Shown in pieces: positions 5,949-61,945 of a DNA stretch of 64,000 nucleotides. The DNA is taken from assembly GCA_033819885.1 (NCBI GenBank), contig JAQYUZ010000003.1, forward strand, positions 558,001 to 622,000, given 5' to 3'. The stretch's first letter is position 1. Every line of letters begins with the position of its first letter. The notes under the pieces are model-generated. The model was not told where the DNA came from. It did not search any database and worked only from the letters and a program-made list of their open reading frames with translations. Position numbers and translations under genes: made by a program. This stretch comes from Microbotryomycetes sp. JL201. Lineage: Eukaryota; Basidiomycota; Microbotryomycetes.

Positions 5949-8053
5949 ATGCTACGGCAGGCGTCTTCGTCGACGGCAAAGTGGATGCCATGCATGTGCT
6001 CGAGCGGCAGCAGTGGTGCAGGCCGGGCTCGGTACGCGACCGCGGCCGCCGCCCCGGCGGTGACGGCAGCCTCGGCGGCGCCATCGCCTGCAGCGGCGTC
6101 ACTTGCGCATTCAACGACTGCTGTGGACCATCATGTGACATGGAGCGACCCTGCATACTTGGCGCGGTACCGTGACCCGCAGGCACACGACCGGACGACG
6201 ATCCGACCGAGACCGGCAACGACGGCGACGGCGACGGCGACGGCACCACCGTACGCCTCGGCGACCACACCGTCACCGACTGCACATCAAACGAGGTCGA
6301 CAGCGACGGCGGCACAGCCGAGGCGTGCAGCAGCGTCCGCGCAGTTTGAGCAGCCGTCGGGCGTCACCGGCACCGACTCGCCGCGCCGGAGACGACTCGA
6401 GATGGAGCGGCTCTGGTCAGGTGAGCACTACGGGCGAGTGTCGTGCTCGTGCCGGCCCATCATCAGGCCAGCACTACCCCGGACACACCGCCTCACTCTT
6501 GCGTGTGACTGCCGCTGACGTCTGATTCCGGATGGCTCCCACTTGACCCGTCGCACACGGCACAGGCGGCGAGGCTTCACCTCCGATCCCACTCGAAAAC
6601 TACAAGGCAAAACCCTCACGGCAGAAACCGAAACATGCACTCTTGTTCCCCGGCAGCGGCTCGCAGTACGTGGGCATGGGCCTCTTTCTCCAAAACTACC
6701 CCGCCGCTCGCCAAGTGTGGCGCGAGGCAAACGACGCACTCGAAGGCTTCGAGGACTGGGCCAGGCAACTCAAACTCGAACAGCGAGACGGAGAACTTGG
6801 ACAGCTCGGCAAAATATTTAAAGACGAGACGAAACAGCGTCTGATGCAGGCCCCGCTGCAAGAAGTCGTCTTCAAAGGACCGCAGGCAAGTCGAACGTGC
6901 TGACAAGTACCGTCGCACTATCCATAATGACTCCACACCTTGTTTAGGAACGCCTCACAAGGTCGACAAACGCTCAACCGGCCATCCTCATCACATCAAT
7001 CGGCTTCCTCCGTACGCTCGAGGTCAGTCGAACTTGCCCACTGCGCCGAACGCCTCCTGATCATACGCATGCGCTCTTGCCACTCACAGCAAGATTTCCA
7101 CATTCCGGTCGCATCGACGGCCTCAGCCATCCTGGGTCACTCGTCGGGCGAATACAGCGCTGCAGTGGCGGCAGGCGCGCTCGACTTTGCAGATGCTGTC
7201 AGACTGATCGTGAGTTTGTGCTATGGCTTGCACGCTGGCGATGGTCGCCTGTTGACGCGCCGCGCGCTTTGCAGCGTCTGCACGGCCTTTTGACATCTTA
7301 CACGCTGTCGCTACCGACGATCGGCCTGTCGTACAAGCAAGACGCTCCTGACGCCATACGCGGCCAGATGTCGGCGCTCGTCATCAACCCAGGTCACACG
7401 CATGAAGAAGTGACAAAAATCATAAAGACGATTCGTGAAAGCCGAGCGTCGTTGGATCAGAGCGCAGGCACCGTCGAAGTCGCCAGCTTTAATTCATCGG
7501 CCCAACTGGTGCTCGCCGGCAGTCGAGAGGGCATCATGCGTGCGAGCGAGTACTTGAGGGACAATGGTATTGCGTCGCGTGCCGCAGACCTGCCCGTGTC
7601 GTGAGCTTCTCGTTGCGGCATTGAATCAAGACGACCGAGAGACTGACCAATTATTGCTTGAAAAGGGCCCCGTTCCATTGCTCGTTCATGAAGCCAGCCG
7701 CAGACGGCATGCGCGCGGCACTGCGCACAGTCAACGTCAAGGAGCCAGCCGTGCCCGTCGTCTCTTGCCTGGACGGCACCTTGATCAAATCGGCCGACGA
7801 CCTCATCACACAACTAGTCGCGCAAATCAGGTTGCCTGTCAGGTGGTCTCAATCACTGCACAACATTGAGCAGCAAGCCAATGTATCGAGGTTGATCTTT
7901 TTGGGACCGGGCAAGGCATTGGCAAACTTGGCCCGCAAGGACGAGTCGGTCAAGAGTGATGTGCTGAGTGTTGCGACAGAGGCAGATATGAAAATTTTCA
8001 AAGATGCTCAAATGAAGGAACAGCGAGAGTCGAGCGAGCTGTACAGGAGATGA
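5949..8053 (+). CDS. MCT1: Mitochondrial malonyl-CoA:ACP transacylase
   Basis: Transfers malonyl groups from CoA to acyl carrier protein in mitochondrial type II fatty-acid synthesis, which feeds lipoate production. Six exons (5949-6420, 6566-6885, 6948-7022, 7090-7209, 7275-7600, 7666-8053) give 566 aa. Motifs: FPGSGSQYVGMG at the start of the catalytic domain, LTRSTNAQPAIL, nucleophile elbow GHSSGEYSA, catalytic-His segment APFHCSFMKPA, and GPGKALANLARKD near the end. The leader MLRQASSSTAKWMP is a good mitochondrial presequence. Some 170 residues of Ala/Thr/Pro/Arg-rich sequence follow before the catalytic domain, which makes the protein much longer than yeast Mct1. The intron 6886-6947 starts with GC (CAG|GCAAGT); only this donor gives the conserved GPQ-ERLTRSTNAQ junction. 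An alternative upstream ATG exists at 5835. Confidence 0.93.
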
Positions 8054-8261
8054 TTTTTCGCTTTCGCTCGTTTCGAAAGAGTTGCGCTGGAGCTTTTGCG
8101 TCTGTGCTGTTTTGATTTCAATTGTTGTTCCTGACGTACCGATTCCGTATTATCACGCTGTACAATGCGGGTTGCTGTGTTTGTAGTGAACAAATTTCTT
8201 TGCATTCCATGGACACTGTTATGAAAGGACTCTGGTTCGCCTGCACTGCTAACCGAACCGT

Positions 8262-11200
8262 CTACAATGACGAAATCAGGTAACTCATGATGACATCTTG
8301 TTCCTCACAAGCGATCGTCAACAAGCACTGCTCAAACTTGCGAGCAAACGCCCAACCTTCCTTTTGACCCATTTCGTCGTGAGCGTCCGACGACATTTTC
8401 CACAAAGTCGAATCACGTTCTGCCACGACGGTCGCGTTTCGTTTGTTTCGAGACAAGAAACTCATCTCACCGGCGACCGTGCCTGCGACCATTGATTCAC
8501 TGACGGCGTGAGATCGATCTTTGAACAAGTACGTTGCTCGCAACATGCCAGACTCGATGACGTAAACACTGTCGGCTTCGTCTCCTGTGCTCCACAACGT
8601 CGCGCCTCGTTCGACGAGCACGCGCTTGAAATACGGTACCAATCTGAAGCAATAGTCTTCGTTCAAGTCGCCCATGAATGGCTTGAGCGACTGCAACAAA
8701 ATCGGTAGGGGCTGTTGAAAGTTTGTTTTGTGAGGAGTGTCGGAGCGTGACATTGTTTCGCGCGCGGCCGTGCGCAGGTGAGACGAGCGCGGCGAGTGCG
8801 CGAACGATACGATCTCTGAATCAAGCTCGTCCTTGGGCACATCTGAACGGTGGACGGGAAGGTAATTCGCACAACAGCTAAACTTGACCTGATACTTGCG
8901 ACTGACCGATATGAGACGTGAGCGCGGGCACGCTCGTCTGTGCAATCTTGGGCGCTTGAAAGTCTCGCGAATACAGCGATCGCAGGAAAGCGTTCTCGCA
9001 ATGCTAGAAATACGCGACTCGTGAGCAATCTGTGAGGCGGGCGCAGGGTTCAGGTCTGTCCCACCTCGAGCGCATCGTTCAGGTTCTCAAACACTTCGAC
9101 TTTGGACTCGCCATTGTCGGCCCACAAGTCCACGCTTCGCAGCGCAATACCGACGTTTGAATTTGCAGGACAGCCACACAAGACCAGAACGGCTTGCTTG
9201 TCCTCGAGAAGTCTCTGGATTCGAACGAATGCTTCTGCGGCGCTGAAGTCGACCCCTGTTGTTTCGCTCACAGTCAATTCCGCAAATGTCAACCAAGCCC
9301 GAGTCGCAACTCACCGCTTGCCATTGAAAAGTCGAGAACGAGGAAACGGATTGGGTTTTGGGACCAACTGGCAGCTTCGAGGATCTTGCGAATGGTGCCT
9401 TCAACGGCCGAGATTGTGCCAAAGAACAAGAAGCCTTGCAATTTCATGATACGAGTCTGTCGTCCAACTTCTTGCAGGAACGCGCTCTGTTTCGGATGCC
9501 GTCGGACGGTCGAACGAGCGACCGAGCCGCTGAGAACAGACCGGATGGCTCGTCTCTGGGACGAAATGACGACGAAAGAGACACAGGCAAGTATGATGCC
9601 GACTCCAATCCCGACGACAAAGTCCCATGCCGTCATGACGAGAACGATAGCCCAGATCGTAATGTATTCGAACCGTGCAACGCGACCGTACGTGTCCCAC
9701 ACGGCCTGCTTGACTGCGTCAGCAAGACCGAAAGCGTGGTTGCAGGGCCATACACTGACCTCTTTCACCAGATCGATGGCCAAGATATAGATGAGAGCAC
9801 CAACAACACAGACGGGCAGGTAACTAATGATGCCGGGACCTGCAACGAGTACGCCAAAGTTGGCGGCCGCAAGCAGAAAGCCAGACACGCGTGTCGTGCC
9901 ACCGACGCGGTAAAACAAGACAGAGTTGACGTAGCATAGGTAGTTGGGCACAGATCCAATCATGCCGGCGGCTACATTACTGACGCCGTGGGCAACGAGC
10001 TCCCGATTAGTGTTGACGTTGTCCTCACCGACAGAGATGGCAAGAGCGGGCACATTGATTGGCACGTGCAGGAGACCGAAAAAGACGAGAGCAAGCTGCG
10101 TAGGGATCGTGTCGAGAAGAGCCGACCAGCTCGTTTTGCCAAAGTCTGCCCGACAGGGATGAGCGCGTCAGAGACTAGAACTGATCATGGACAGACAGGC
10201 ATACCGAATAAAGTCCAAAATTCGTACCACCTGTTGTCGACGCCGTTCACTTCGAAAACCCAACCATTCTCTCGCAGGGTCTCGATGTTGATGCGAGCAG
10301 CGGCAGCAACTGCGTAAAAAACGACCGGAATAGCAATGAAGAACCCCGGAAAAACGAGGGGGTGGTGGTATCGTGTTGTGATGACGCGCAACGAAATGGC
10401 TAATGCAAGCGGAATTGTCTGCGGAGGATGAATGTGAGCGAGGGCTCAGGCCGGGCAACGCTCCTCATACCCAAAGGGGCAACACGCTCGGCGTAAAGTA
10501 ATGCTTAATCAGCTCGAGTGAGACACCAACGTCTTCTTCGAGTCTTGCGGAGACTTGCAAGCTGAAGAAGAAAGTCAAAGAGCGGATCTCGTTCGAGGCC
10601 TCAGCACTTACCCCGTGACGAAGAGGAACGCGCCGACGCCACCAATACAGCCGACGAGGATGTGTCGCGGGAAGAACTCGCACAGACTACCGAGCTTCAA
10701 CACGCCGAGCAATCCGAACGCAATTCCGGTGAGGATCGAAGACATCGCAAACGCGACCATTGTCGTAGCGACCACAGCCTGATCGTCCGACAGCCTTCCG
10801 ACAATGATGCCGGCAATCGAATGGAAGAATGGCTAGCAAAGGGTTCGGGTCAGCCCGACAGGGTTGCAAAGCTCTTGCAGGAAACATACCACAACTTCAA
10901 TCATCATAGAGCCGTTCCCGCCTTTAAAGATCGAGCCTCCGCCTGTATAGACGATCTGACTGACGACACAGGTGACGAAAAACATTGACACGCCGATGCC
11001 GCCGAAGTCGGCAAAAACTGGCAAGTTTGTCGGAAAAGAAATCAGGCCGTAGCTGACGCCGTCGAGCACGTTCATGAGAACGCCGAGAATGACGGCCGGA
11101 ATAGAGTCGAAGCTCGTCTTCGCAACACCCAAAACATCGACGCCCTTGGCTTGCTGGCGGGTTCGTTCCCAAAGATTGCCGGCGTGCTTGCCGAGATCTG

Positions 11201-12506
11201 AGATTCCACTCCAGTTTGATACGAGAGAACTTGTCCGAGATGGCTTGTGTCCCAGAAGAGGCGTCCTCTCGCCGTTCAGACGTCGTGGCGAGGGCGAACG
11301 CGCCTGTCTGCTCAGTCGTCTGCGCCGAACTTGCGACTCGTCTGACGCGCCAACATCGCCGAATTGCGACTGAAGCATCTGCTCTTCCTCTTGTTCGCTG
11401 TCGTAACCTCCTGATTCGTCGCCGAGCACAGCGACTTCAGGTTCCGAAAGCGGCTCCGCTTCGTCTCGCGACCGTTCTCTCTCCCGCCGTTGCTTGTCCA
11501 TCATCCTCGAGGGCGTCGGCGTCTGTGACTGAGATCCTCCGCTGTGAGCTCCTGGGCTACGGGCATTGAGACTGCCGACATGGCTCTGCGTTGGCGTGAT
11601 GCCATCACCGGGGCTATTCCGATTTTCTCCAGAAAGATGCGAGCCGAACGTCGCAAGCTTTTTGTTGGTGCTGGACCTGGGCTGGTTGCTTGGGGATGTT
11701 GCGGGCTGAGGAAACGTCAATGGGGCAGACTCGTCTATTGGCTCGGGAGATTTGGCGAATGCGGTCGTGCCTGGTACAAGCGTGGACGGACGAGCCAGAG
11801 ACAGTCCAGAAGGTGAAGACGGCGATGTGAACTGATCCAGATTTTGTCGGTCTGCTCTTTTACCGAGCTTTGCGCCGTGGGACCTCCGCTCTGGGGCGGA
11901 TGATGATCCTGGACCTGGTGGCGGAGCCATTTCGCTCGTCGGGGAGTGCAGCGGGGATGGCATCACCAATGAGAGCGATGCCAGTCGAGCGGAACCTGCG
12001 AGAAGAGTGCGCACGCGTGCACAGGCTATGAGCGAGCTGTTTTGGGCACGAGTCGGAGGATGATAGCGACATTGCTCCTCAAGAGAGACTTCTCTTGTCC
12101 GCTTCACATGCAGCGCAGTTTGATGGAAGGTGCAACTATGTGCTGGCCACCTTGCGTGCCGCGCCCGCCCCGTTGCAGTACTATATGCTATCGCCAAGTC
12201 GCTCTCACCATCTCTGAGCTCTTCGCGCGTTGCGGAAAAGCTTCCGAATTTGAGTCCGGGCAGGTCACTGAGAGCTTCACTTGCGATGGACACTCTGCTG
12301 CCGTTGTCGTAATGCGAGACGCTTTCCTTGCGAGGGACAGAGACCCCACTCGACAGCCGAGTATTGCTCTTGCCGGCGAGCGCCGGCCTGTACGAGGCCG
12401 GTCCACCGGCCGACGACGACGTCGATCTCGATTGAGATCTGCGCCGGCCAAAGTCCAAGTTTGGCGGAGACGACGGCACGAGCGCGGGCGACTTTGGGTT
12501 GACCAT
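8262..12506 (-). CDS. SulP-type transporter with STAS and cyclic-nucleotide-binding domains (yeast YGR125W type)
   Basis: Large membrane protein, nine exons (12506-12209, 11995-10890, 10832-10612, 10561-10471, 10418-10205, 10145-9315, 9255-9065, 9003-8907, 8842-8262), 1209 aa. It begins with a serine-rich, probably disordered region of several hundred residues. A SulP membrane domain follows ([30 protein letters not shown], later [18 protein letters not shown]), then a STAS domain ([27 protein letters not shown]) and a C-terminal cNMP-binding fold ([36 protein letters not shown]). This order matches the fungal YGR125W (Vsb1) group, linked in yeast to the vacuole and basic amino acid storage, rather than plasma-membrane sulfate permeases. 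The 213-nt intron 11996-12208 is stop-free and a multiple of three, so it could instead be translated. An additional upstream coding exon is possible. Confidence 0.88.
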
Positions 12507-12779
12507 GTCTTGGCCGCTGTCTCTATCGGCGTCAGCGAGCCTGTCGAGGGCAGCAGGCGCTCTGTTCCGACTGCTGATCGTATCTCAGCCCGGTCGAGAG
12601 CTTCGGCGTCTGTTCCGGCGGGCGCGGCACTTGTCAAACTCGCCATTCGGCGATCTCTTTGAGCTTTGCGTCTCTCAAACCGCACGTGACCCTTTCCGGC
12701 CCAAAATGGTGTCGTATTGTGCGCGCGAGCTCTTGACAATGTATAGTTGGCTGCATAGTAATGCTGATCTCGTCCATTC

Positions 12780-13705: not shown

Positions 13706-14879
13706 ATGCCGAAAGTCGCAGCCAACGACCCTTTGTCGCATCAAGTGAGTGAGATGAAGTTGGCTGCCTGCTAGGTTCCCACGGCTCGGCGTTCACCAAC
13801 TGAGCGCCGCGAACGCCAGAATCTCGCAGCGGCGGTATGGTACACGGTTGCAAAGGTCAGATAACAGCCTCAATAATCGACGAATTTGTTTCTGACTTGG
13901 TCGACGCACAGATCGCCGAAGAAGAAGGTGTGTCTGGTGCTTGAACGTGCCCACTCCGAGGGGCTCGAGCGTTCCTCACAATCGGTTGCAGAGCAAAACA
14001 TGGACATGACAGTCTCAGAACACTTTGTTGCGACTTTGACTGAGCTCGTGTTTCAGCAAGCATGCAAGTCGTGTGCCACACACTCATGATCCAAGTTGGC
14101 TCTTGGGAATTGACGTTTGTTTTGGATCAGTATCGTTGGGCAAGGATCTCGAACGATTCGCGTTGTCAGTGCAGTATTTTGATGAGGGTTTCCAGGCAGG
14201 ATGGTGCTGAATCCTTGTTGGTTTATAGCCACGCTGGAAGGAATACGGTCGGAGTGGACGATGTCAAGGTGAGAGAGGGCCGCAAATCACTTTTCGCCAC
14301 AATCGCAACCAACTCAATCATTCTGTGTGCCCGCCAGCTCGCTTGTGGACGAAATGAAGCGCTTGTAGGACAGCTCACACCTCCGCTCACAAACTCAAAC
14401 TGATAAAATACGGACAGTATGAGCACATCACCACTGAAGCGGTCAGGAACGGTCTGGCCCTGTCAGAGGTCAAGACGACAACCACAATGCCGAAAGCAAG
14501 GGCGCGACCACGAGTGTCTGAAGGTGCCATCAAAGCCAGCGCTGCGAAAAAGGCAGCGACTGCAGCCGTGGCCACGACTTCAAAAAGACCTGCTTCCAAA
14601 AAGCAGCAGAAGGTTACAAAGGTTCAGAAAGTGAACAACAAGGACGTCAAAGGCAAAGGCAAGGCGATAGCAGACAGCAGCAGCAGCAGTGACAGTGGCG
14701 ACAATGGCAGCGACAAGGTCATCGACTTCGCCATCATGAGTCAGGACGATATTGATGATGCAAGCTCGGAAAATCGCGCCGATGAAGATGAAGACGCCGG
14801 CTCGAGCATGGATGACGGAAGCGATGAAGACTTGCCAAAGCGAAAGAAGGGCAAGCTTCGCAGAGGGACTGCGAAGTGA
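13706..14879 (+). CDS. MHF1: MHF1 / CENP-S histone-fold protein
   Basis: Histone-fold subunit that pairs with MHF2 (CENP-X); the complex binds DNA with the FANCM/Mph1 helicase and at kinetochores. Eight exons (13706-13744, 13820-13855, 13912-13927, 13992-14063, 14131-14164, 14229-14268, 14338-14364, 14418-14879), 241 aa. The fold reads NLAAAVWYTVAK, EHFVATLTELVFQQA, LGKDLERFAFHAGRNTVG, VDDVKLACGRNEALYEHITT and matches animal MHF1 almost position by position. After it comes a 110-residue tail, first Lys/Ala-rich, then acidic Ser-rich, ending in KRKKGKLRRG, longer than usual. The intron 14064-14130 has a GC donor (CAT|GCAAGT); the spacing of the conserved QQ-x5-KDLERF segment needs it. Exon 3 is 16 nt. 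The acceptor of intron 1 is the least certain site. Confidence 0.88.
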
Positions 14880-15080
14880 CGGCTCTTTGCTTGAAGCAGA
14901 AGTGTGATTCGTTTTGAAATTGGAAAGAGAAATAAAGAAACGCTTCTTGCCTGTGCAAGTTTAACGAGCTACGAGAACAGCAACACGGAACACTTTGACC
15001 GATTGACTACGGCATGCCTTTATCAAAGGGAAAAATGAAAAGGGAGGCGGGTCCACCCGTGACTCCACGCGATTCGCGGC

Positions 15081-18281: not shown

Positions 18282-19552
18282 ATGTCGGTCTGCCCTAGGT
18301 ATTTGTCACTTTCTGACGGCTCTCTTGATTGACAATCTCACTTGGCGCAGTTATCCGCTGAGCAGTGCGACAGCATTTTGGCCAAGTGTCTCGGCGCGAG
18401 CGCTTATGGGATCCTTCCATTGCAGACTACGTTTTCGCAACGAAAGACGAACAGCCCGAGGAGGCTCCTTCGGTCGGGCAGCGCCTGCACAAGCTGTGAG
18501 TGGCGAACGGTGGCACAAGGGGTCCGGATTCTGGCGTGTACTGATCCGCTTAATGAGACAGCCGCGCAGAGTTTGCAAGAGAAGGCACTCAAAAGACTGC
18601 GAGTTCCGTGGTTTTGTAGTATCGTGGTGCCTGCTAATCAATCTGCGACAGGTTGAGGCTGTTCTCCTCGTCCATGACCACGGTGAGTGCCCATGCTGCC
18701 AACAAGCATCGGAGGAAGGAAAGTGCTTGAAGCATACGTGAAATCAGGCCATCCGCATGTCTTGCTCCTTCAAGTCGCCAATACATTCTTTAAGCTGCGA
18801 GTCTCCCGCCATATAGAGCGAGGCAAGGTAAAACTGACTATGGCTGCGACAGGCCAGGCGATTTCATCAACAAGCATGAAAGCGAGGAGGAAGGTATCGA
18901 GACGCGTCTGCAATACCGTCTTGGCCCGGAAGTGGAGATCATCGTTGGCAAAGAGGCTTCAGGCCCGTGCATGATCGATCCACTCGCACGCGACCACTTG
19001 TCTACAGAATGGCACGTCAACAGTGTCTTGTCAAAATGGTGGCGTCCAAACTTCGAGGGTTTCATGGTGCGTCACGAGCCTTACCTGCGCCGGCGTTCCC
19101 GAGCAGACCAAATTGACGTTCCCAGACGCACAGTATCCGTATATGCCAGTGTAAGCGGGCGATGGCGCCTTGTACAGCAGCCTCGACTGATTGTACGGCC
19201 AGTCATATCTCGACGCCAAAGGAAATCAAAACGGTATTTCTTGTTGACCTGCCCGAGCACGGCGAGTGAGCTTGCCACCACCTCTTGAAAACGTAATTGA
19301 CACCACGAATCATTACAGCCGTTTTCAATGTGCCAAAGAACATGAAACTTGTGGCACTGCCTCTGTTTGAACTGTATGACAATGCAATTCGGTGAGCGCG
19401 CACTGGCCTGACTCGGTGGCGATTCGCCAACTTGAGGCTGTGCAACGGCTGTAGTAGCCCGCGAGCTGATGAAAACACGTTTGTGCAGCTATGGACCTGC
19501 TTTAGCGGCGATTCCTCATCTGCTGTCGAAATACGACGTGAAAATTGCTTGA
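18282..19552 (+). CDS. NUDT21: Cleavage factor Im 25 kDa subunit (CFIm25 / NUDT21)
   Basis: RNA-binding Nudix-fold subunit of cleavage factor Im, which recognises UGUA and sets poly(A) site choice. Eleven exons (18282-18298, 18351-18364, 18426-18495, 18562-18607, 18652-18682, 18748-18796, 18853-19066, 19134-19150, 19203-19261, 19319-19391, 19489-19552) give 217 aa that align with human NUDT21 throughout: YPLSNYVFATK, VEAVLLVHDHGHPHVLLLQV, NTFFKLPGDFI, KWWRPNFEGFM, STPKEIKTVFLVDLPEH, VPKNMKLVALPLFELYDNA, AAIPHLLSKYD. As in animals, the Nudix box lacks catalytic glutamates. Exons 2 and 8 are 14 and 17 nt. Introns 18797-18852 and 19262-19318 both begin GCGAGT. The donor after exon 4 (GTGGTT, or GTTTTG 3 nt later) and the start in the 17-nt exon 1 are the weakest points. 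Budding yeast lacks this subunit. Confidence 0.9.
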
Positions 19553-23167: not shown

Positions 23168-24879
23168 ATGTCATCCGCACCTCTGCCGCCTCAAGCGGTC
23201 CAAACAAGTCAGCTGTAAGCTCACGCACCCTTCTGCATGACGGGCACGCGCTGTGCTTTGTCGTGGACTGTCGAGTCAATCCGCACGTGACTGATCCTGC
23301 CACACTCCTCGCGACGTTCTTGCCCTGCGTAACGGAGCAGGTCGAAGCAAGAAAAATTCGGGATCATTACGCAGAACCTGGCCGAAGTGTTAGGCTCAGA
23401 CATTCTCAAAAAAGTCTTGGATGAGCGCGAGCTCGTGTGCTACTGGGGCACGGCCCCAACGGGCAGGCGTGAGTGATCTACTATCTCAAGGAGATCTGAA
23501 CAACGCTACACGGTGTCGGAGACGCTGCGAAAAGTCTTGGACCCAATGCGGCCGCTGCCGCTGCCTGCTGGCGTTGGCCGAGAGCATTGCAGACTGACGC
23601 TTCACGTGCACTTCAACAGCACACTTGGGATACTTTGTCCCCTTGACCAAGATCGCGGATTTCCTCTCGGCTGGTGTTGAAGTCAAGGTGTTGCTCGCAG
23701 GCAAGTCGGCGTAGCTTTCGACAGGTCTTTAACCTGCACAGCAAACTCACGGGAATTCTTGATGACACGACATGAACAGACGTTCATGCGTTCCTTGATA
23801 ACCTCAAGGCTCCGATCGAGCTTGTTGAGAGACGAGCAGACTACTACAGGCTGCTGATCAGCGCAGTATTCAAATCGCTGCACTTGCCACTCGACCAGCT
23901 TACGTTCGTGCTCGGCTCGACGTACCAGTACACACCTCAGTACAACTTGGACAAGTACAAACTTTGCTCAATCACGACAGAGCATGACGCGCGCAAGGCC
24001 GGAGCCGAAGTCGTCAAGCAGGTCACGAGTCCAGTTTTGAGTGGTTTGCTGTACCCGCTGCTGCAAGCACTCGATGAAGAGTACCTCAAGGTCGACTTTC
24101 AGTTTGGCGGCGTTGATCAGGTAGGCACGCGAGGCTTGCAAGCGTCTGGCGCTCAAGCTCAAATGATTCAACCTGTCCACTTTGTACAGCGAAAGATCTT
24201 CACGTTCGCAGAAGCCAACTTGCCAAAGCTTGGCTACACGAAACGAGCTCACTTGATGAACAAGATGGTTCCCGGTCTCTCTGGCGGCAAAATGTCTTCG
24301 TCAGACCCAAACTCCAAAATCGACTTTCTCGACTCGCCCGCGACCGTCAAGTCCAAGATCCAAAAGGCGCATTGCGCACCTGGAGAGGTCGAGGGCAACG
24401 GCGTTTTGGCATTCATCTCGAACGTCATTGTACCGATCGGAGAACTGATGCGCAAACAAGGTCGGGCCAATGAGCGAGCGTGGGCCGCAACGGAACAAGC
24501 CGTGTTTACAGTCAAGGGTGACCCGAAACATGGTGGCCAAAGTGTCCATTTTGGCTCTGCAGAAGAGCTAGAGCAAGCTTACGCCGCCGGATCGGTCCAC
24601 CCTGGCGATCTCAAAGCGAGCGTCGTCGAGGCAATCAACAGTTTGTTGGCGCCGATCCAGGCAGAGTTTGCCGCGTCCAAAGAGTTTCAAGATATCGAGG
24701 CTGCAGCGTACCCGCCAGAAAAGAAGGAGCCGACAAAGAAGAAGGAGAAAAAGTTTGTGTCAAAGGAAGAATACTTGGCAAAGAAGGCGGCCGCAGAAGA
24801 AGCAAACAACGTGAACGGTTCACAGCTCGACACGGACAGTCTCAAGAGCGCAATTGAGGACGTTGCAAAGGCAGTGTAG
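23168..24879 (+). CDS. TYS1: Cytosolic tyrosyl-tRNA synthetase
   Basis: Class I synthetase charging tRNA-Tyr. Five exons (23168-23214, 23341-23468, 23620-23700, 23780-24120, 24190-24879), 428 aa. Landmarks: [32 protein letters not shown] (the HIGH-equivalent), [46 protein letters not shown], and [15 protein letters not shown] (KMSKS loop). The C-terminus is Lys/Glu-rich as in eukaryotic cytosolic enzymes; there is no organelle presequence. Intron 23701-23779 has a GC donor (CAG|GCAAGT); it alone gives VLLA-DVHAF in frame. Intron 24121-24189 is stop-free and divisible by three, but splicing restores [14 protein letters not shown]. The stop codon faces that of VAS1 84 bp away. Confidence 0.96.
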
Positions 24880-24963: not shown

Positions 24964-25196
24964 TCAATCCTTGAGCTTCAAGAACCCTTCAATGGCCGAT
25001 GTCAACGCCGCAATGTCGACCTCAATGTCCTTGAGCTTTTGTGCTTCCTTTTCTCGAACAGCTTGAGGCTTCTTGGTCTCGTACTCTGGAGCAGACATGC
25101 CTGCGCGCAGTTTGTCGGCTGCCGCTTGCTGGAACGCTCGTTTCTTTTCAGCTTTTTGAATTTCGGCATCGGCATTGATGACACCCTGAGGAGCGA

Positions 25197-25227
<31 letters not shown>

Positions 25228-28200
25228 ATCAGTGAGGAAAGCGCTACCAATGGTTTGATTGTGACAATCACTGACCTTGAGCAAGAGATGGGCCGAAAGC
25301 TCATTTGAAACATTGTCACCGACGCAGCCGACAGGAATGTCAGACTCTTTGTCAACAATTGACAACGAGTCGCAACCCTTGATCAAAACGCGAAGAGCTT
25401 TTGACGCGTCGCTCAGGACGCCAGCGAGTCGCGCATCGCGAGCATGGAAGAACACTGAAGCACGAACAAACTCAGAATCGGACGACGCATCGACCAAGTC
25501 ACGACAGACATACCTTGCAGCTTCGAATTAATGTTGTAAGACGTTGCGGCACTTCGGATGCTTCGGATAGCGTTGAAAGCCAAGTCAAAGTCTTTTTCTT
25601 CTTGCGTAAACTCGCGAGCCGAGTCCTGGCGAGACACGTTAGTCAGGTTCCGAGAAAGAGTCTTGTGTCTGTCCACTCACTGCCTCAGGATACCTTGACA
25701 GCATGATCGAAGGTGTATTATCTGTAGGCCTTCTTGGCAGACGCTGCCACAATTCTTCCGTGACAAACGGCATGACAGGATGAAGCAGCTTGAGGCCTTG
25801 GTCGAGCACCGTGTACAAGGTGTTCTGCGCCGACCGGCGAGGCTCGAGAGGAGCGTCTGGCGCTGTGATATCTTTGATCGCCTCAATGTAAACATCACAG
25901 ACTTCGTACAACCAGAAGCTGTACATCTCATCGGTCGCCTTCATAAAGTTGCGATCAGACAAGTGCTGATTGACCTTTGTGGAAGCCTCGTTGAGCTTGT
26001 GCAAGATCCATCGCTCCACGAGCGACTCTTGGCCTGTCGGTTTGGCGGACTCTAGAGGAATAAAGTCGGCGTCGAATTTGCCGATAGCGAACCTTGTTGC
26101 GTTCCACAATTTGTTGCAGAACTGCAAAGCGAAGAAAGACCACGACTCGGTCAGCGGGTGGTACCCTAGCGCGACGAAGCGATGACGCGACGCACTTTGC
26201 GATAACCCTCTACTCGCAGAATCTCCAAGTTGATGTCGCGACCAGCGGCGCTGTAGGCAGCCAAGCAGAACCGCAGAGCGTCTGTGCCACACTGTGGAAT
26301 GCCATTAGGGAAGTCCTTCTTTTGTCCCTTCTCGGCAATGCCGATCTCCTTCTCTGCCAGATTGCCAACGCGCAGCTGGGCGTGCAAGCTTTCAAGCGAC
26401 GCTCCCTCAATGACGTCAATAGGATCAATGACGTTGCCTAGCGACTTTGACATCTTACGTCCATGAGCGTCACGGATCATGGCGTGACAGAAAACTTCGT
26501 CGAAGGGCATCTTGCCGGTGAGTTTGATGCCGAGCATGACCATGCGAGCGACCCAGAAGAAGAGGATATCCCATCCAGTCTCCAAGACTGCGGCAGGATA
26601 AAAGTGCTTCATGTCGGGCGTCTGTCGAAGCGCGAGAATCAGCCGTCTGGTTGCTCAGCTAACGCCTGCTGCTCTAGCTCACGTTCTCAGGCCAGCCCAT
26701 GATGGAAAACGGCCACAGACCAGAGCTGAACCATGTGTCGAGGACATCGTCGTCTTGCTCGAGTGAGAATTCGACGCCGGGGAATTTAGCCGCTGCTCGC
26801 GAACGAGCGTCCTCCTCGTTACGGCCTGTGATCCAGTACTCATCGCTCGATTTCTGTTGTAGGAGACAAACAAACATTGTCACCTCTCCGAAAGCTGAAA
26901 CCTGACGATCAGAGAGACTCACATCCTGATCTTTGCCTTCAATGTTGACAAAATACGCTGGCGCGCGGTGACCCCACCACAGCTGACGGGAGATGCACCA
27001 GTCGTTGATGTTCTCAAGCCACCTATACCATTCGTTTTCTGACGACTGGGGCTTGATCTTGAGTTCGCCAGCTCGTGTCCTCTGGACGCGCCGATCAGTT
27101 CGAAACACCGTCGCTGATCCGATCAATTTCGCTCACCTCTAGTGCAGCGTCAGCAAGACCTTTGCAGCTGACCCACCATTGCGGCTTCATGATACTCTCG
27201 ATGATGTCACCCGATTTTCTACAGCGTCCTCGTCGTCAGCTGTTGCGGCAGTTCAAGTCCTGGACAGCACTCACGAGCAGATTGGAATGTTCATCGGGTT
27301 ATTCTCGGCACCAACATACAATCCCTTCTCTTGAAGTCGTTTGACGACTTCGTTCCTGGCGTGGAACCGCTTCATGCCCTCAAAGTCGGGTCCGGCATTG
27401 CTGTTAAGCGTACCATCGTCGTTGAGAATGTTGATAAACTCGAGCTTGTGCCTCATTCCGACTTCGTAATCATTGGGATCGTGCGCAGGAGTCATCTTGA
27501 CGGCACCGGTACCGAACGACATGTCGACGGCGATCGAGTCTGTAATGATGGGGATTTTGCGGTCGATGAACGGATGGATGGCATATTTTCCATGCAGATG
27601 CTAAGGAAAAAAAAAAGACATACTTAGCTCCATCTTTGCCAACCAGCGTCGTGAGCAAAGACGAACCTTGTAGCGCTCGTCGTCGGGGTGGACCGCGATG
27701 GCGGTATCACCTAGCATGGTCTCGGGACGCGTCGTAGCGATAACGATCTTCTCGTCCGAGCCTTCAATCGGATATGCAAAGCTGGTGATGACTCCAAACT
27801 CAAACTTTTCGTTCAAAGGGTAGCCAGGAACGTTGAGCAACGTCCGACCCGTCAAGACTTTTTGATCGACCTCAAGGTTACTCAGAGTGGTGTTGAGGGC
27901 GACACACCAATTGACGAGGCGATTGGCGCGGTAGATGATGCCTTCATCGTGCAGCTTGACAAACGTCTCGATGACGGCCTTTGACAGCGACTCGTTCATG
28001 GTGAATGCGACACGGTCCCAATCGCAGGAAACGCCCATGCGACAGATCTGATTTGTGATGCGTGCTTGATATCTAGAGAGAATGGGTCAGTTTATGTTAA
28101 ACGTGAGGGGCCCGAAACGGAAGCGACGACTTGCTCTTCCTTCCAAGACATGCAACGTTCCAGGAATTTCTCACGGCCGAGATCATGTCGCGTGAGGTTC

Positions 28201-29038
28201 TCGAGCTTGGCCAATCGCTTCTCGACGACGGACTGCGTCGAAATGCCTGCGTGGTCATAGCCAGGGACGTACAAGGTCGTGAAGCCTTTCATGCGGTACC
28301 TGCAAAGAGAGCGAATCAGCAGGGGCATACCGGCTGCAAGGAAAGGAAGAGACTGACCATCGAATCATGGTGTCTTGCAAGCCAAACGACAGGGCGTGGC
28401 CAATGTGGAGTGAGCCGGTGACATTCGGTGGTGGCGCGGGGATGACGAAAGTGCGCTGCGGGTCTGCCTTTGACCAGTCCAGCTCTCCTTGTGCATTACG
28501 AGGCAAGACGTTGGGCTTTTCGTCGTAATGCGAATGCTCCGAGGGAGAGTCTGAAGGAACCGCTGGCACAAAGTACGAGCATTCCCTCCACCACGAGTAC
28601 CATGACTTTTCGACGTTTGTAGGGTTGTAGCCCGAAGCCATGGGCTGAGACATGTCTTTACAGAGCCCGTTCATGCAACTCGTTAGCACGACTACACGCG
28701 CAGGCAAGTGCAGACCCAGACGCACCTTTTTTGTGGCCCTCTGGCACGTCGATGAACGGCGGTTCCTCGACTTCAGGCGCTGCCGGCTTTTCTTTCTCCT
28801 TCTTCTTGCCCTGACCAGGCTGAGCGGCTGCCGGGTTGGCTGCCTGCTGAGCTTTTTTGAGTGCTTTTTTGGCTGCAAGGGCGGCCTCCTTCTCCATGCG
28901 CTTTAGTGCGCTCTTGGTTGGCTGCTCTGGCGCGCCATTGTTGGCGCCACTGGCGGCAGCAGTGTCGCCTTGTGTGGCAGCTGGCGCCGTCGCCGCCTGG
29001 TCTTGCTGCGGCCGAGTCAAGTCGTTGGTCGAGCTCAT
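24964..29038 (-). CDS. VAS1: Valyl-tRNA synthetase
   Basis: Class I synthetase charging tRNA-Val with an editing domain. Thirteen exons (29038-28726, 28655-28358, 28299-28135, 28072-27667, 27600-27275, 27218-27137, 27081-26923, 26853-26683, 26621-26196, 26121-25681, 25625-25514, 25454-25276, 25185-24964), 1099 aa from the ATG at 29038. Landmarks: [24 protein letters not shown] (HIGH), [20 protein letters not shown] (editing), [41 protein letters not shown] (KMSKS), [12 protein letters not shown], and a C-terminal coiled coil. The Ala/Lys-rich N-terminal appendix is typical of fungal cytosolic forms. The frame stays open upstream of 29038 and encodes a mitochondrial-type leader without ATG. 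Intron 28073-28134 has a GC donor (AGA|GCAAGT). Confidence 0.96.
25197..25226. repeat. T10A20 homopolymer tract inside a VAS1 intron
   Basis: Ten T followed directly by twenty A on the plus strand, inside intron 25186-25275 of VAS1. The transcript therefore carries U20A10 just before the acceptor, which can serve as a long pyrimidine tract. Exact run lengths may be affected by sequencing. Confidence 0.85.
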
Positions 29039-36420: not shown

Positions 36421-38382
36421 ATGACCCAACGTACTGTGCTCGCGTTTGCGACGCTCGCAGCCTTGTCGGCAGGCACAAATTATGCTGTCAGTAGAACAAG
36501 CCTGACTCTTTGGTCCAAACTGCGACTGATGTGCGCCTTGCCAGTTCTCATCATGGGCTCCGCAGCTTGCGGATCGATTGCACCTGAGCTCAAAGGCATG
36601 TCGCGTCCAACACAGCCGTCACTGTCCGCTGATCCATCAGGGAACTCTTATTTGCACAGGCGACAAACCTTGTCGGCGCAGCGGGCAATGCTGGGGTGTA
36701 CTTGAGCGGACCGAGTCTGGGAATGGTCGTCGACCGCAGAGGGTGCAGGCTCGTGCTCTCCATTGCAGCTGCGACACTATTCATGGGTTATTTGATGCTC
36801 CATGCCATCTACGTCGGAGGAGAGACGGGGCCATACAGGAACTGGGGTCTCACTGGTCTCGTCATTGGCGAACTGCTCACGGGAGTAGGCAGTTCCGCCG
36901 GCTTGGGTGCTGCGGTCAACGGCGTCTCCAAGTCGTTCTCAGCGCAACACAGGGGAGCGGCTGTCGCCACAGTCGTCGCCGGCTTTGGCTTGTCCGCTTT
37001 CTTGTACTCTTCCCTGTCACGCGCGGTGGCGTCAAGCGAGTCTGATTCGACCTCGACATTCCTCTTGCTGCTCGCGTTTGGGTGCGGGATCAGCATGGTA
37101 CTTGGATCAATCTTCGTTCGACCAGTCCTGCCGCTCTCGGGCGAGCGCAAGATCGGCTACAGTGCCGTCAGCACTGACGAACCAGTCGTTGGCAGGTCTT
37201 CGTCTTCTCGACCGAGTTCGCCAGCACTTGACCCCGTATCGAGCAAGCCCGTACCACTGTCAAGGACCTCACCCGAACTTGACGGCTCGCACATCGTCGA
37301 ACGTCACCGCCGGTCTTCGTCCAAGGAGCGCGAAACCTTTGCTGGAGATCTGGACGTGAACGGCAGAGCGCTGCTCGTCGATGCCGACTTTCACGTCATG
37401 TTTGCTTTCCTCGGCTTGTGTGCAGGTATTGGGCTTATGTGTGAGAAGGGCTGATGACCTTTTTGACGTGGCCCGAGAGGGAAGCTGACGCGCGTTGTCA
37501 ACTATAGATCTGAACAACTTGGGGTAATTGAACCGACGGAAACATTCTCAAAGCAACTAACAGCAGATCTGCAGCACGATCATAGTCACATTGTCGCACG
37601 GAACAAACCTGACGCCCGCGCAAGTTTCAAAAGCTCAGGTGCGCAAGACTACCGGCACGATCTGTCAGTCTGAGGGCTGATACGTTTTGCCATCTCGCTA
37701 GGCACATCTCGTGTCGTTGCTGTCGATCTGCAATTGCCTTGGCCGCCTCGCCGTCGGGTTCGCGGGCGACTGGTGCTCGCATCATTGCCCAGCAGAGTGG
37801 CGATTTCCAAGAATCCGCTGGTACATGGTTGTTGCTGCGGGTTTCATGGCATCGCAAGTGGTCGCCGTGCTGGCTGACTCACTTGACGGTTGGCGCGGCT
37901 TGTTTCTGCCCACGGCCGTGGTCGGGTGCGTCAGATCGTCCAAGTTGGCCCAACTCGCTCGCAATCTCTGACGATAATTCGACCAGGCTATCGTATGGCG
38001 CTCTCTTCAGTGTCTCTCCAGTCGTCTGCCTCGAGCGCTTTGGGTTGCCATCGTTCGGTGAGCGTCGGGCGAATTTGCGTCGAAGGATATTCGCAAATTG
38101 CTGATCGTCGATGATTGCCGGTTATTGCCGCGCACTTCTGTGCACTTCACAGCGACCAACAACGGCATTTTGACGTTGTCGCCAGCCGTGTTCGGTAACT
38201 TGGCGAATGCCGTCTTTGGGTACGTTTACGATTCTCGAGTTGACGAAGCAACACCCGACGGCGCGCATCTGTGCACTCTAGGCAGGGCGTGCTTTGCGCC
38301 TGCGTTCTATACGACTATTCTCATGTCGCTGTGTGCGTTTGCCGCGGCTGTCGTCTTGTCAAGCAGGCGATCGATGCGTTGA
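36421..38382 (+). CDS. MCH1/nodulin-like major facilitator transporter
   Basis: Multi-pass MFS protein of the group containing yeast Mch1 and plant nodulin-like carriers; substrate unknown, vacuolar membrane in yeast. Eight exons (36421-36486, 36545-36595, 36660-37440, 37509-37524, 37575-37638, 37702-37925, 37987-38057, 38153-38382), 500 aa. Landmarks: LAALSAGTNYAFSSWAPQL, ATNLVGAAGNAGVYLSGP, VGSSAGLGAAVNGVSKSF, RGAAVATVVAGFGLSAF, a Ser-rich central loop of about 90 residues, GIGLMYLNNLG, SLLSICNCLGRLAVGFAGDW, LSYGALFSVSPVV, NNGILTLSPAVFGNLANAVFG. Intron 36596-36659 starts GC (AAG|GCATGT). Exon 4 is 16 nt. The gene starts very close to the 5' end of the divergent KEX1 gene. Confidence 0.88.
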
Positions 38383-47845: not shown

Positions 47846-47985
47846 CGTTGGCGCGCGACACAGGAAGCAACACGAGCGCCAGCACAGGCAGCTCAAGGAA
47901 AGATTTGGGTCACTCATGAGTGAGGAGGATCAATGATTCTATACTGACAAAAAAAAATTGCTATCAGAATTGCCACCTTGCAACC

Positions 47986-49101
47986 CTAGGCACTCGCTGC
48001 AAGCCGTGGTGCCCCCGCCAATCCTTCCGCCACACTCTTTCTCAACTCTGGCGAAGTTTCAAGCGAGTCGGAAAAGTATGACAAAACAAGCTCTTGCGCC
48101 AGTTTGGGATGTGTCAGCTTGCCGAGTACATCTGCTGGTGCATCCGCAGCAGCACTCTATCGATCGAATCTGGTCAACGAAAGACTCGATCAAATGGCCA
48201 AACCCGCGTACCTTGAGCTGGAATTGCACTTGCTTGTCACGAGCAGAATAGTACAATTCAAGGGGCGATCCTTTTGGCAGCGTTCGAGACGGAAACAGGC
48301 TGCGCATTTCAGTGACTGCTTGTGGCGCGGCCTTGAGAAAGATCGCTCAATGAGCATTGACTAGCCTTGTGTCGAGACTGGCACCGAAGGACTGACCTCG
48401 TTCTCCGCATCGGTCATGTTCTGCGTCACGTGAGGCAGCTTGAGGCGTGCGAGTAGGCCCCGAGCGAACCCATCTCTCAGATGAGGCAGGTTGGTGTTGC
48501 GTAATGGTACTGTGCGGTAAAGTAGTCTTGTCAGCCCGCGAGAAGCGGCTATTGGGGATTGCGACGTACCAATGACGATAGCAACGTTTGTCGTCTCGAG
48601 CAAGCGCGCCACTAGCCTCTCGCCGTAAGGCTCGTCCAGTGCTTTTGGGAATGGGGGCAGCAGCTTATCTGGAGCGTACGATGGATTGTCGGCTTTAAAT
48701 TTGGCCAGTGCACGCTCATCCATGTAGAACCCTGCGGCGTAAACTTTAACTGCAAGGAAAGAGACTGTCCTAACACCTGTGCCGACGAGCACGAGTTGTC
48801 GACCGTCCGGCGACTGAATGTGTGTTGGGAACGTGAGTTTGCTTGTGGGATCGATGTAGCCTGACGGCGACGGTGGCTCGTCTGCATCGACTTGTGGCAG
48901 CAGTGCACGTGACCTCTCTCCGGCGACAAATATGGCCATTCCGGCTGCGAGCAGGGCAGGAGCAACAATGGGCGTCCATGACAGCGCAGCCCTGTGCTGC
49001 AGTCTCGAGCGAGCCGTTGACAATCCTCTCTGTCGAACAATGAGCTGCTCGACCAGCGATCGCCTCGACGTTCGCAGGGCCGTCCTACACGAAGATATCA
49101 T
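47986..49101 (-). CDS. Mitochondrial chalcone-isomerase-like protein (AIM18/AIM46 family)
   Basis: Fungal mitochondrial protein with a chalcone-isomerase fold; yeast Aim18 and Aim46 bind haem and are not flavonoid enzymes. Four exons (49101-48570, 48509-48397, 48331-48212, 48156-47986) give 311 aa. The N-terminus is a basic presequence (MISSCRTALRTSRRSLVEQL) followed by a hydrophobic segment (PALLAAGMAIFVAG), consistent with the inner membrane. The fold reads LVLVGTGVRTVSFLAVKVY, AAGFYMDE, VPLRNTNLPHLRDGFARGLL, EMRSLFPSRTLPKGSPLELY, LSYFSDSLETSPELRKSVAE. The last stretch matches the family C-terminus. Biochemical role unknown. Confidence 0.88.
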
Positions 49102-57974: not shown

Positions 57975-59915
57975 AGATGACGATAATGCAATGATTGGCT
58001 CTGTTGCGGCGCCTTTGGAGGTGAAAGATCGACGCGCTTCGGTGGGGCCTAAAGCTCGGCTTGTGGGGGCGACCCAACCACGCGCCTACGGTCTGTGGCT
58101 TGTCCAGCGCCCACAACACAACGCACATTCCCATGCTGTCTCTATCACTGACGCCCCGCCGGACAATACTCCTGTGAGTCGATCGCACTACCATCAAATC
58201 CCATGCCCAGTCACGCGACCCGGCTGACTGGTCGATCCGGCACCGGTTCCTCAGGATCGCGTCAGTGCCTGCAGCGCTACTCGCGTACAACAAGGCGGTA
58301 CATGCCAACCTGGTGCATCGCAGTCGCTCAAGCCCTGGTCTGAGCTGTATCGACACGCAACGAAGCGGTGGTGGCGTCTGATGAGCCGAACGGCCGCCGA
58401 CAACATATTTTGAAACAATGTCCCAATAATGTCCTCGCTCTCGATTCTACAAGCTTGGGCAGAACTTGGTTGCACGACGGTGGCAGAAGCGACTGTTCAT
58501 CGCACGTGACCCCATCATCGAGCTACTGCAAAGCATGGTCTGGTAGTGTTGTAGAGGAATTGATTAAATGTGTGCTTTCATTCGCTTCAGCCAGTATTGA
58601 CCGTGCAAGCGACTTCAAAGAGAAGCGACGTCCCTGTCGTTTTCAGTGGCAATCTCGACCATTCGCGTCGTGTGCTTTTGGCCGAAGACGCCAAGCTTTG
58701 CCACTGTGCTTTTTGCTTGATTGGCCGGTGATTTGGTCCCTCACGTGATAAAGCCTGGGTGTGTTGGAATTGGCGATTCGAATCCCGAATCGTAGATGCA
58801 GTATCGGCACCTTGGGGACATGTCCAGATTCGATCAAATGCTCATCTCCTCTTCAGTTGGTGACGTATGCAGGTGGGAGTGCTTGCATCATGCAATTCGC
58901 GCCTCCTTTTCCGGTGAAAACAGCTATTCGTCCCGATGCTATAAAATGTATATCGACTTGCATTCGCGCTTGAGAGAAGCTGAGAGGTGCCATCACTGGG
59001 GTATCTTTGCTCTCCTGTCGTATGCTGGAAAAACGTCCTCGTCCACCTCGTTCTCCTTCCTCCCACCTCGCTCGATCGCAATGCAAGATCAATGACCTCT
59101 GTTCGGTGCGCCTATTGTGAACATGAACGACCTTGTGGCACTGCATGCTCTTGAATTGCATCCTTGACTGGATGCTCGATGGTTCGCTCCCGTTTTCCAA
59201 GCAGCGACCATCTGCCCCTCCCTCAATGTGATTCTCTTGTCACAATCCACTTCTACATTCACGCCCTCCTTATTCATGTCGGCCGTCCTGCTCCTCCATG
59301 GGCGCTGTCGACGGGAACAGTTGGGCAGAGCGATTCTTGTCGCCGTAGTTGGTCCTCGACTTGCTTTCCGGCGGTCGGAGACACTTGACTTCGGTATCAA
59401 GGACCAGATGCTGTTCGTCCTGGGCCTTACTAACCTTTGCCAACCGCTCCTCGGCCGGCACGTTTTTTTTCGTGTCGGTGTCTGGCAGGGGCGGTAGAGA
59501 CAGTCACTGGGTACACTTTGCAATTTGACCATGTGGTGACATCAATATGGATGTTCTATGATCTATACCTGGATAGCGCACCTCCGTTTTTCTAGATCTT
59601 CCGCCAATCTTTAAGCTCTGCAATTGTATTCCGGAGCGACTCTGCACACTTTCAGGGAGGCGTTTGCCCTGCGTACGCACGTCAACATTGTAGTTTCGGG
59701 GCCACGAACTACGTGAACTTTCGTGTCCGGAGACGAAATCGGATCCGGCCGACGGTCTTCCGACCTCGCCGACCCAAGACCAAAAGCTTCCATGACGCTA
59801 GCGGCTTGAGCCCGCACGCCCAGGCTTGAAGAGCAGTAAGATCTCATACTCGGCGACCTAGCCTTGATCACTTGTCACGCACTGCTCCGCGCCTGCGTCG
59901 TTCTTGTCCTGGACA
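57975..59915. other. 1.9 kb without a recognised gene
   Basis: The largest empty interval in the window. Open frames on both strands (for example 57892-58356 minus, 58368-58748 plus, 59089-59532 minus) show no domain, no convincing splice pattern and no codon continuity. No tRNA cloverleaf, simple repeat or transposon hallmark found by eye. It could hold a non-coding transcript, a highly intron-split unknown gene, or decayed sequence. Confidence 0.5.
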
Positions 59916-60848
59916 ATGGTCTTGCAATCGCTCGTGTCACCCTTCATTACGGGCTCGTATGACTTTTGGTACTTGTCGTTCGCGTTGCCGACCGCGGTCG
60001 TGGCTGCCCTTTTGCCCCAGTCATGGACGAGCACTTCGTCACCGTTCCTTAATTCGGCCGAGCTGGCGCAACGAGGCATCGCAGCGCCAGTCCCAGCGCC
60101 ACCGGCAGGATGCCAATGGGTCAACGTCCAGGCTGGGTACCAGATCAACACAGGGGTAGACGTCTCGTTTGGCAAATCTTCATTTTATGTACGTTACTTG
60201 ATCAGTCTCCTCGCACTCGTTTCTCGTCGGAACTCACACCGCTGGATGGAATGGCTCTGTAGGAAGCCAAAGTTGAAGTCCCGTTCTTGCAACATCCGTA
60301 CATCAAACACACGGCGCCGTTGGCGTTCAAGTCGACCGTTCTGTTTTCGAGCTTGTCAATGACGGCGTCAAGCGAATTGATCACTGGCTTGCGCTCCCGC
60401 AAGACCACGTTCGAAAACCAAACGGACACCTTTTATCGCGCTGACGGTTGGCTCACGCTTGAGGACGGGTCAGATGTTGCATCTCGGACGGAAGCGTGGT
60501 CGAGAGACCTAGTTCGAGAGACTACTCAAGGCTGGTTCGTTGGGCAAGGATCCGGCTTCTCTGCAAACAAGGTCCGCTCATCAGGCGCTTGTTTTTCACA
60601 CAGACACTGACGCGCGTTTCCTCTGACAGTTTACACTCGAGCCGAAAGAGTCAGAGCAAGAACACGCTCAAGTATCATTGCAGCTCAACTTGCCTCGGTT
60701 CCTCGCAAAGTCGATACAAGAAACTCGGACTCTACTCGCCGACTCTGGTGTCGAGATGAACGACAGCGGGTGGATAAGGGTCGCTTCGACCGGATGGAAA
60801 CTGTTTGATGCGAGCAAACTAGAATCAAAACCGATCTCGAAAATCTAA
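59916..60848 (+). CDS. Uncharacterised membrane-anchored protein
   Basis: Three exons (59916-60188, 60263-60571, 60630-60848) with consistent phases give 266 aa. The N-terminus holds one hydrophobic segment (FWYLSFALPTAVVAALLPQ), which should be a membrane anchor or uncleaved signal. The rest is a soluble region with alternating beta-like hydrophobics: CQWVNVQAGYQINTGVDVSF, EAKVEVPFLQHPYIKH, TFYRADGWLTLEDGSDVASR, HAQVSLQLNLPRFLAKSI, and ends DSGWIRVASTGWKLFDASK. I do not recognise a family. Real coding status is supported by clean splice sites and length divisibility. Confidence 0.6.
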
Positions 60849-61017
60849 GGCTTAGGTTGCAGACCTGACAAATCGGATAAGAAATGCTTGTATTGTGCAT
60901 GAAAAAAATCTACAGTTTGCTCTTTGCAAAGCTCGGCGGGTCTTGCCACTCTGGTTGGCGTTTCTGACAAAACGAAAGGAAAGGACATGAAACTTGAGCC
61001 GGCCGCGCAAAGCCTGG

Positions 61018-61945
61018 TTACAGCATCCGACTCACTTCGACGAATGCTTTCAAGCCTTCTTTCAGGTTGTAACCCGAATACAAAGCCTGTGCCTGCTCCG
61101 TGTCGAGGCTCTTGTAAACAACGTCATGGATGCCGTTGCCGTCTTTGAACAAATTGATCTGGTTCTTGGTCACTTGAACCGCATCAGGAGACGCGGCAAT
61201 GATACGTTTCGCCCAGTCGAGCGCCGTTGGCAAGACCTTGTCGGCCGATACAACGTCTGTAAGGACCGAACCGGCGAGGAGGTGTTGAGGGAACGGCTCT
61301 CCCGTCAACAGATATGGCACGAGCGCGGGACACTTCATAACTGTGGGACAAATAAAATTAGACGTCGACCTCTGATCACGACAATGTCACGTAGACTCGC
61401 GCAAGTTGGGGATGCCACCAACTGATGCGACAACGCCCCTGAGTGGCGTTCGCGGGTGTCAGCAGTCGTCGTCGTCTTCTACTGTTTACTGTGAATGCTC
61501 ACCTCTTGACTTCCGGCAAACCGAGTTTTGCACCTGTGCAGCCAATGACGATATCACAATTGAGCAGCAACTCGACGCCGCCGCCAAACGCCATGCCGTT
61601 GACGGCTGCAATCAGAACCTTGGTCGACCTCCTTCTCGCAATCGATCCAAAACCATGCGGGTTACGTAAAATCTTGCTTGGCGGCGAGTCATCCGAGCCG
61701 GCCGTCTTGTTCCAATTCTTGAGGTCTTGGCCTGCACAGAATGCTCGACCGGTACCAGTGACGACCATGACCCAAAGTGACGGCTCTTGTTCGAACCAGT
61801 CAAGCACCCGACGCAGATCGTTCTCAAGATCGTCCGTCATGGCGTTGAGCGCTTCTGGTCGGTTCAGGCGCAGCTGCAGCACTTTTGGTTGAGGAAAAGT
61901 CACAACGAGGTGGCTACCAACACTTGGATAATCTTGTCGTGCCAT
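61018..61945 (-). CDS. Enoyl-CoA hydratase/isomerase family protein
   Basis: Crotonase-fold acyl-CoA enzyme. Three exons (61945-61503, 61438-61401, 61340-61018), 267 aa. Landmarks: LQLRLNRPEALNAMTDDLEN, VMVVTGTGRAFCAGQDLKNW (oxyanion hole), KVLIAAVNGMAFGGGVELLL, CDIVIGCTGAKLGLPEVKRG, VASVGGIPNLL. The usual hydratase glutamates are only partly evident, so hydratase versus isomerase is open. The C-terminus ends VEVSRML, a PTS1-like tripeptide position (RML is a weak variant of SKL), so peroxisomal location is possible. Intron 61341-61400 has a GC donor (TGC|GCGAGT); no GT donor nearby gives the required phase. Confidence 0.88.

Follow-up and report, generated by a model that had tools for sequence, protein, structure and literature searches.

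GC-AG introns are reported to make up on average 1.009% of fungal introns (PMC7072748), and 1.85% of those of Ganoderma lingzhi (PMC11590231). A sequence-only reading of 64,000 nucleotides of Microbotryomycetes sp. JL201 (the window, meaning the whole stretch analysed) had placed eight GC-AG introns among its genes and put their share at about 5%, which raises the question of whether these donors are genuine and, if so, why this fungus carries so many of them.

We addressed this with a semi-Markov gene finder that combines an order-4 coding model, matrices for donor, branch site and acceptor, and intron length, and that was trained on GT donors only; it is home-made and wrong in places. The sample, drawn from a genome of 17.15 Mb in 92 contigs, consisted of the window plus 20 stretches of 10 kb from 20 contigs, of which one masked 10-kb stretch was dropped, giving 254 kb including the window, with a GC content of 54.9%. 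Training on GT alone yielded 594 introns with a median length of 62, a clear CTGAC branch site and a CAG acceptor. When GC was then allowed at each of four priors (1%, 3%, 6% and 10.6%), the model placed all eight introns at exactly the coordinates proposed for them under every prior, and direct inspection of the sequence found GC...AG at the ends of all eight on the strands given. The eight are confirmed as predicted introns, and we infer that they are spliced as drawn:

6886..6947, plus strand: GC-AG intron (GCAAGT) in an MCT1-like malonyl-CoA:ACP transacylase gene (model 5949-8050), gapless against 3qat.
14064..14130, plus strand: GC-AG intron (GCAAGT) in MHF1/CENP-S (model 13706-14876), gapless against CENP-S.
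18797..18852, plus strand: GC-AG intron (GCGAGT) in NUDT21, gapless against CPSF5 at FFKL/PGD.
19262..19318, plus strand: GC-AG intron (GCGAGT) in NUDT21, gapless against CPSF5.
23701..23779, plus strand: GC-AG intron (GCAAGT) in TYS1, tyrosyl-tRNA synthetase (model 23237-24876), gapless against 2dlc.
28073..28134, minus strand: GC-AG intron (GCAAGT) in VAS1, valyl-tRNA synthetase (model 24967-29038), gapless against 1gax (280-residue part searched).
36596..36659, plus strand: GC-AG intron (GCATGT) in an MCH1-like MFS gene (model 36421-38379), with a gain in Pfam score.
61341..61400, minus strand: GC-AG intron (GCGAGT) in an enoyl-CoA hydratase family gene (model 60913-61945), aligned to 7oeq.

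The sequence-only reading had held that a GC donor is needed at these sites to keep conserved protein in frame, and comparison with solved structures bore this out. Seven of the eight sites lie within such alignments, and at six (MCT1, MHF1, both NUDT21 sites, TYS1 and VAS1) the junction is gapless, as befits U2-type GC-AG introns whose boundaries restore conserved protein. The hydratase is less exact, its alignment to 7oeq being continuous with a two-residue gap a few residues downstream of the junction. The MCH1-like site is the weakest of the eight: its donor is GCATGT, a poor in-frame GT lies nine bases on, and its support comes from the model and from Pfam.

Could the true donors instead be nearby GT sites, with GC forced by the earlier reader? 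Every GCRAGT donor contains a GT at +5/+6, and MCH1 and MHF1 both have in-frame GT alternatives nine bases downstream. Use of the GT at +5, however, would be expected to shift the frame by four bases, and the MHF1 alternative adds three residues that the CENP-S alignment disfavours. The best GT-only models disturb conserved sequence by insertion or loss of residues, and in all six window genes that were scanned, allowing GC introns raised the score for the main Pfam family: 74.2 versus 59.0 bits for MCT1 (Acyl_transf_1), 90.5 versus 84.6 for MHF1 (CENP-S), 162.6 versus 129.0 for TYS1 (tRNA-synt_1b) and 205.2 versus 130.1 for NUDT21 (NUDIX_2), the last with three GC introns together, so that several introns change at once. 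The MCH1-like gene gained in MFS_1 (61.1 versus 54.2) and Nodulin-like (42.4 versus 36.2) and was equal in NFD4_C, and the hydratase gained in ECH_1 (122.3 versus 114.4) with ECH_2 at 69.8 versus 70.2, although a further predicted GC intron confounds this comparison. A short MCT1 fragment gave no match in the Pfam scan, and under the GT-only model VAS1 was broken into two genes. Since GC also exceeded all 14 control dinucleotides (see below), we consider that an annotation artefact has next to no chance of accounting for these sites.

The model also called GC introns that the earlier reading did not include. At the 1% prior the window set comprised nine GC introns (the eight plus one more in NUDT21) against 149 GT introns, and at 10.6% there were five calls beyond the eight (12571, 18599, 20248, 47944 and 61606):

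18599..18651, plus strand: predicted GC-AG intron (GCGAGT) in NUDT21, called under each of the four priors and aligned to CPSF5 with no gap at GTQKT/VEAVL.
61606-61677: predicted GC-AG intron in the hydratase gene, at a place where the alignment lacks about 20 of the relative's residues.
47944..47997, minus strand: predicted GC-AG intron (GCGAGT), called by the model only, at three of the four priors.
12571..12643, minus strand: predicted GC-AG intron (GCGAGT), called by the model only and at the highest of the four priors only, near the 5' end of what by eye is a sulfate permease-like gene.
20248: predicted GC-AG intron called at the 10.6% prior, doubtful by eye.

NUDT21 (18282-19392) has three GC introns out of nine predicted. 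The best solved relative of the gene at 60913-61945 is the mevalonyl-CoA hydratase SidH, and its model is incomplete around 61606-61677.

Outside the window we compared GC and GT-only models for genes picked by hand, 10 out of 36 with GC introns, a choice that favoured visible differences; eight were scanned in both versions, L020 was left out, and L026 was scanned in one version, in which it had no family. Two of the proteins were cut to their N-terminal parts, the second fragments of GT-only models were left out of the scan, and some of the changes involve more than one intron. With these limits, seven of the eight pairs gained with GC introns, in the main domain or in one domain. The scores with and without GC were 120.7 and 79.8 for Abhydrolase_1, 135.9 and 105.2 for adh_short, 168.3 and 161.2 for ribosomal L13, 36.2 and 19.8 for Zn_clus, and 236.2 and 226.1 for Na_H_Exchanger. 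The Arb2-like domain rose from 114.7 to 141.2, with Hist_deacetyl at 294.0 against 294.8, and DHR-2 lobe C scored 33.0 with GC and gave no match under GT only, the other domains of that gene staying within 0.2 bits. In the v-SNARE gene the N-terminal domain scored 65.6 with GC and 67.4 without, and both SNARE domains fell in one protein with GC and were split under the GT-only model. Overlapping secondary families went down by up to 1.1 bits with GC introns in two of the outside genes.

To estimate how common such introns are, each extra donor dinucleotide was allowed singly at an equal prior, with 14 control dinucleotides beside GC. At the 1% prior GC took 41 introns, 35 of them with RAGY at +3 to +6, and the controls took a mean of 7.3 (RAGY 1.9) and at most 16 (RAGY 6; TC). 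At 6% the figures were 58 (43) for GC, and a mean of 21.6 (4.1) and a maximum of 30 (11) for the controls. These control counts are generous and overstate the false rate, because several control calls share their acceptor with a real GC intron. After control subtraction the net GC share was 5.5-5.6% at the 1% prior (with 572 GT introns) and 6.1-6.4% at 6%; a bootstrap over 26 blocks gave 6.5% (4.7-8.3), and the raw share fitted by repetition, false calls included, was 10.6% (66/624). Roughly one predicted intron in seventeen in this sample thus has a GC donor, several times the normal fungal rate and clearly above 1-2%, and the earlier figure of about 5% was about right for the 5.5-6.5% net found in 254 kb. 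GA and GG donors stayed at the control level in the 254 kb at both priors.

Patterns of donor, branch site and acceptor were then counted on both strands of the whole genome. GCAAGT-CTGAC-CAG had 800 matches, against 307 with the tail reversed and 273 fully reversed; GTAAGT-CTGAC-CAG had 409, against 65 and 187. The GTGAGT pattern had 1365 matches and 178 fully reversed, and the GAAAGT pattern showed no excess (181 against 232 fully reversed). The excess over the reversed tail was about 493 for GCAAGT and 344 for GTAAGT (C share 0.59), over the fully reversed control 527 and 222 (0.70), and by the GAAAGT hit rate about 426 and 336 (0.56). On contig C21 three identical match pairs lie on opposite strands with coordinates summing to 218,853, which suggests either inverted duplication of a large segment or an artefact of assembly; the apparent duplication may slightly inflate the pattern counts. 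Neither the 254-kb sample nor the whole-genome patterns pointed to the genome-wide rate near 1% that would have spoken against the reading. A relaxed choice of any base at +2 was rejected, with GA and GG at the control level and the GAAAGT pattern without excess.

In their anatomy the GC introns match the GT introns. Lengths do not differ (medians of 60 and 61, p=0.41), and branch site and acceptor are the same, with CTGAC or CTGAT at a median distance of 20; the GC introns carry a U2-type branch site rather than a U12 motif. The difference lies in the donor. A at +3 is found in 53% of GC introns and 24% of GT introns (p=6e-6), and A at +4 in 86% and 61% (p=1e-4), so that, outside +2, GC donors match the U1 complement more closely than GT donors do. 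The exonic positions do little: G at -1 is found in 59% of GC and 46% of GT introns (p=0.07), and A at -2 in 38% and 39% (p=1). The exonic AG is indeed weak at the GC donors, as the sequence-only reading had remarked, but this is not special to them, being a property of all donors here, and compensation is intronic, through +3A and +4A. The net GC share depends strongly on positions +3 to +6, at 52% for AAGT, 21% for AAGC, 11% for GAGT, and 1% each for CAGT and GAGC. In a crude estimate of the predicted U1 duplex energy GCAAGT (-4.0) comes near the common donors GTACGT (-4.3), GTGCGT (-4.4) and GTCAGT (-4.6), although on average the estimate is weaker for GC donors than for GT donors (-4.2 versus -5.4, p=0.001). 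Among GT donor hexamers GTCAGT ranks second (63/558), and C reaches 18% at +3 in the 254-kb sample.

We think it likely that these are ordinary U2-type GC-AG introns, made unusually common by permissive donor recognition and drift, with standard U1 and U6. Donor recognition would tolerate one intronic mismatch to U1 if the other positions pair, and C at +2 would be one such mismatch, accepted mainly where +3 is a purine, +4 is A and +5 is G. Such donors would then be under little selective pressure to keep T rather than C, so that T-to-C changes could build up to about 5.5-6.5% of introns. The relaxed recognition at +2 put forward in the earlier reading is, by inference, supported.

A selective account, in which GC donors are kept as weak, regulated splice sites, was also raised by the sequence-only reading, and we saw no sign of such regulation here. 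It would draw on the reported ties of GC introns to alternative splicing in human, nematode and Arabidopsis (PMC2490688). Against it, most of the window cases are in what we judge to be housekeeping genes, the lengths are alike, and there is no marked excess of first introns (raw shares of 22% of GC and 17% of GT introns). The dependence on +3 and +4 is, moreover, what tolerance of a mismatch predicts, and we regard regulation as a very improbable explanation.

Has T lost most of its advantage at donors with AAGT at +3 to +6? Genome-wide, GCAAGT equals or outnumbers GTAAGT, and perfect GTAAGT donors number only 18, where independence of positions would predict 48.8. In mammals, +3 is reported to be negatively correlated with other intronic donor positions (PMC4671708). 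The noncoding background, however, has 249 CAAGT and 38 TAAGT (87% C), and the frequent C at AAGT donors may in part reflect composition; composition likewise explains part of the GTAAGT shortage, because TAAGT is also rare in that background. By this yardstick T at donors is still preferred several-fold. Strict neutrality between C and T at AAGT donors is not claimed, the noncoding background itself being 87% C, and the loss of most of the T preference there is a tentative idea that we hold to be doubtful. If it were correct, donors would work best with about one mismatch to U1, the step that normally rejects C at +2 would have changed, and a fungus with a moderate GC content could be developed into a test system.

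The splicing machinery bears on whether such a step has changed. The genome has one U1 match, with the standard 5' end AUACUUACCU, and one U6 match, with a standard ACAGAGA box. The earlier reading had suggested altered U1 or U6; the pairing regions are standard in the single match for each, in which no base pairing with C at +2 was found and which do not mark a variant U1 or U6, though a diverged second gene could be missed. An Rfam scan of the window gave no match. The U1 gene (L007 1501-1678) combines its standard 5' end with a diverged body, scoring 31.1 bits where the gathering score is 69.5. The U6 gene (L008 1501-1683) is split by a GT-AG intron that follows immediately on ACAGAGAA; fungal U6 genes with introns are already known (PMC5832005). 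Loss of METTL16 as a cause was rejected: the genome contains two pieces belonging to its Pfam family, which also has matches in bacteria. U1-C is present, and its zinc finger, read from the gene model, looks normal beside the human and yeast sequences.

These observations weigh on a more specific alternative, a changed trans factor (U1-C, Prp8, LUC7, an snRNA modification or a second snRNA gene) that in this lineage specifically makes donor selection less strict against C at +2. In its favour are a rate several times the fungal mean at only 55% GC, which makes composition alone a weak cause, and the abundance of GCAAGT, which at least equals that of GTAAGT; for algae with the same puzzle, Iwata and Gotoh are reported to have proposed base modifications or U1 proteins (PMC3033335). 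The ordinary pairing regions of U1 and U6 and the ordinary U1-C zinc finger stand against it, with one match each for U1 and U6 and diverged variants that could be missed. We consider a dedicated change of this kind unlikely, if far from fanciful, and prefer general permissiveness of the donor step, with drift filling the class.

Similar or higher rates are already known in some algae. In a comparison of 61 species the highest reported GC-AG shares were those of Aureococcus anophagefferens (39.6%), Micromonas pusilla (22.2%) and Chlorella sp. (7.7%), and both Aureococcus and M. pusilla were reported to have a standard U1 5' end, the authors calling the abundance of GC-AG an enigma (PMC3033335). 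In Emiliania huxleyi GC-AG is given for 56% of 241 curated junctions (PMC4028052). JL201 shares with the GC-AG-rich algae an elevated rate and, as reported for Aureococcus and M. pusilla, a standard U1 5' end, but the genomes of those algae are described as having about 65-70% GC, whereas JL201 has 55%; its rate lies a little below that of Chlorella, the third-highest alga, at far lower GC content. A relaxed donor dinucleotide in a lineage has also been described in Eurytemora affinis, with GA/GG donors in about 12% of introns (PMC5714493); the dinucleotide differs in JL201, where GA and GG show no excess. As in the U2-type GC-AG introns described for fungi, the GC donor here has a stronger consensus elsewhere and goes with an ordinary acceptor and branch site, but unlike them these introns reach about 5.5-6.5%, and their compensation is intronic, with little or none exonic. 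Among the literature matches listed no fungus had a genome-wide GC-AG rate of at least 5%, which is weak evidence of absence, apart from Meyerozyma guilliermondii, an annotation-based outlier reported to have about 6.67% major non-canonical introns (PMC7072748).

For the genome of JL201 this means that GT-only gene finders would break many gene models: scaled up from 33-39 net cases per 254 kb to the 17.15-Mb genome, the introns concerned may number some 2,200-2,600. JL201 is a further case of a high GC-AG rate, and with its moderate GC content it widens the puzzle of common GC-AG introns with an unchanged U1, reported so far mostly from very GC-rich algae.
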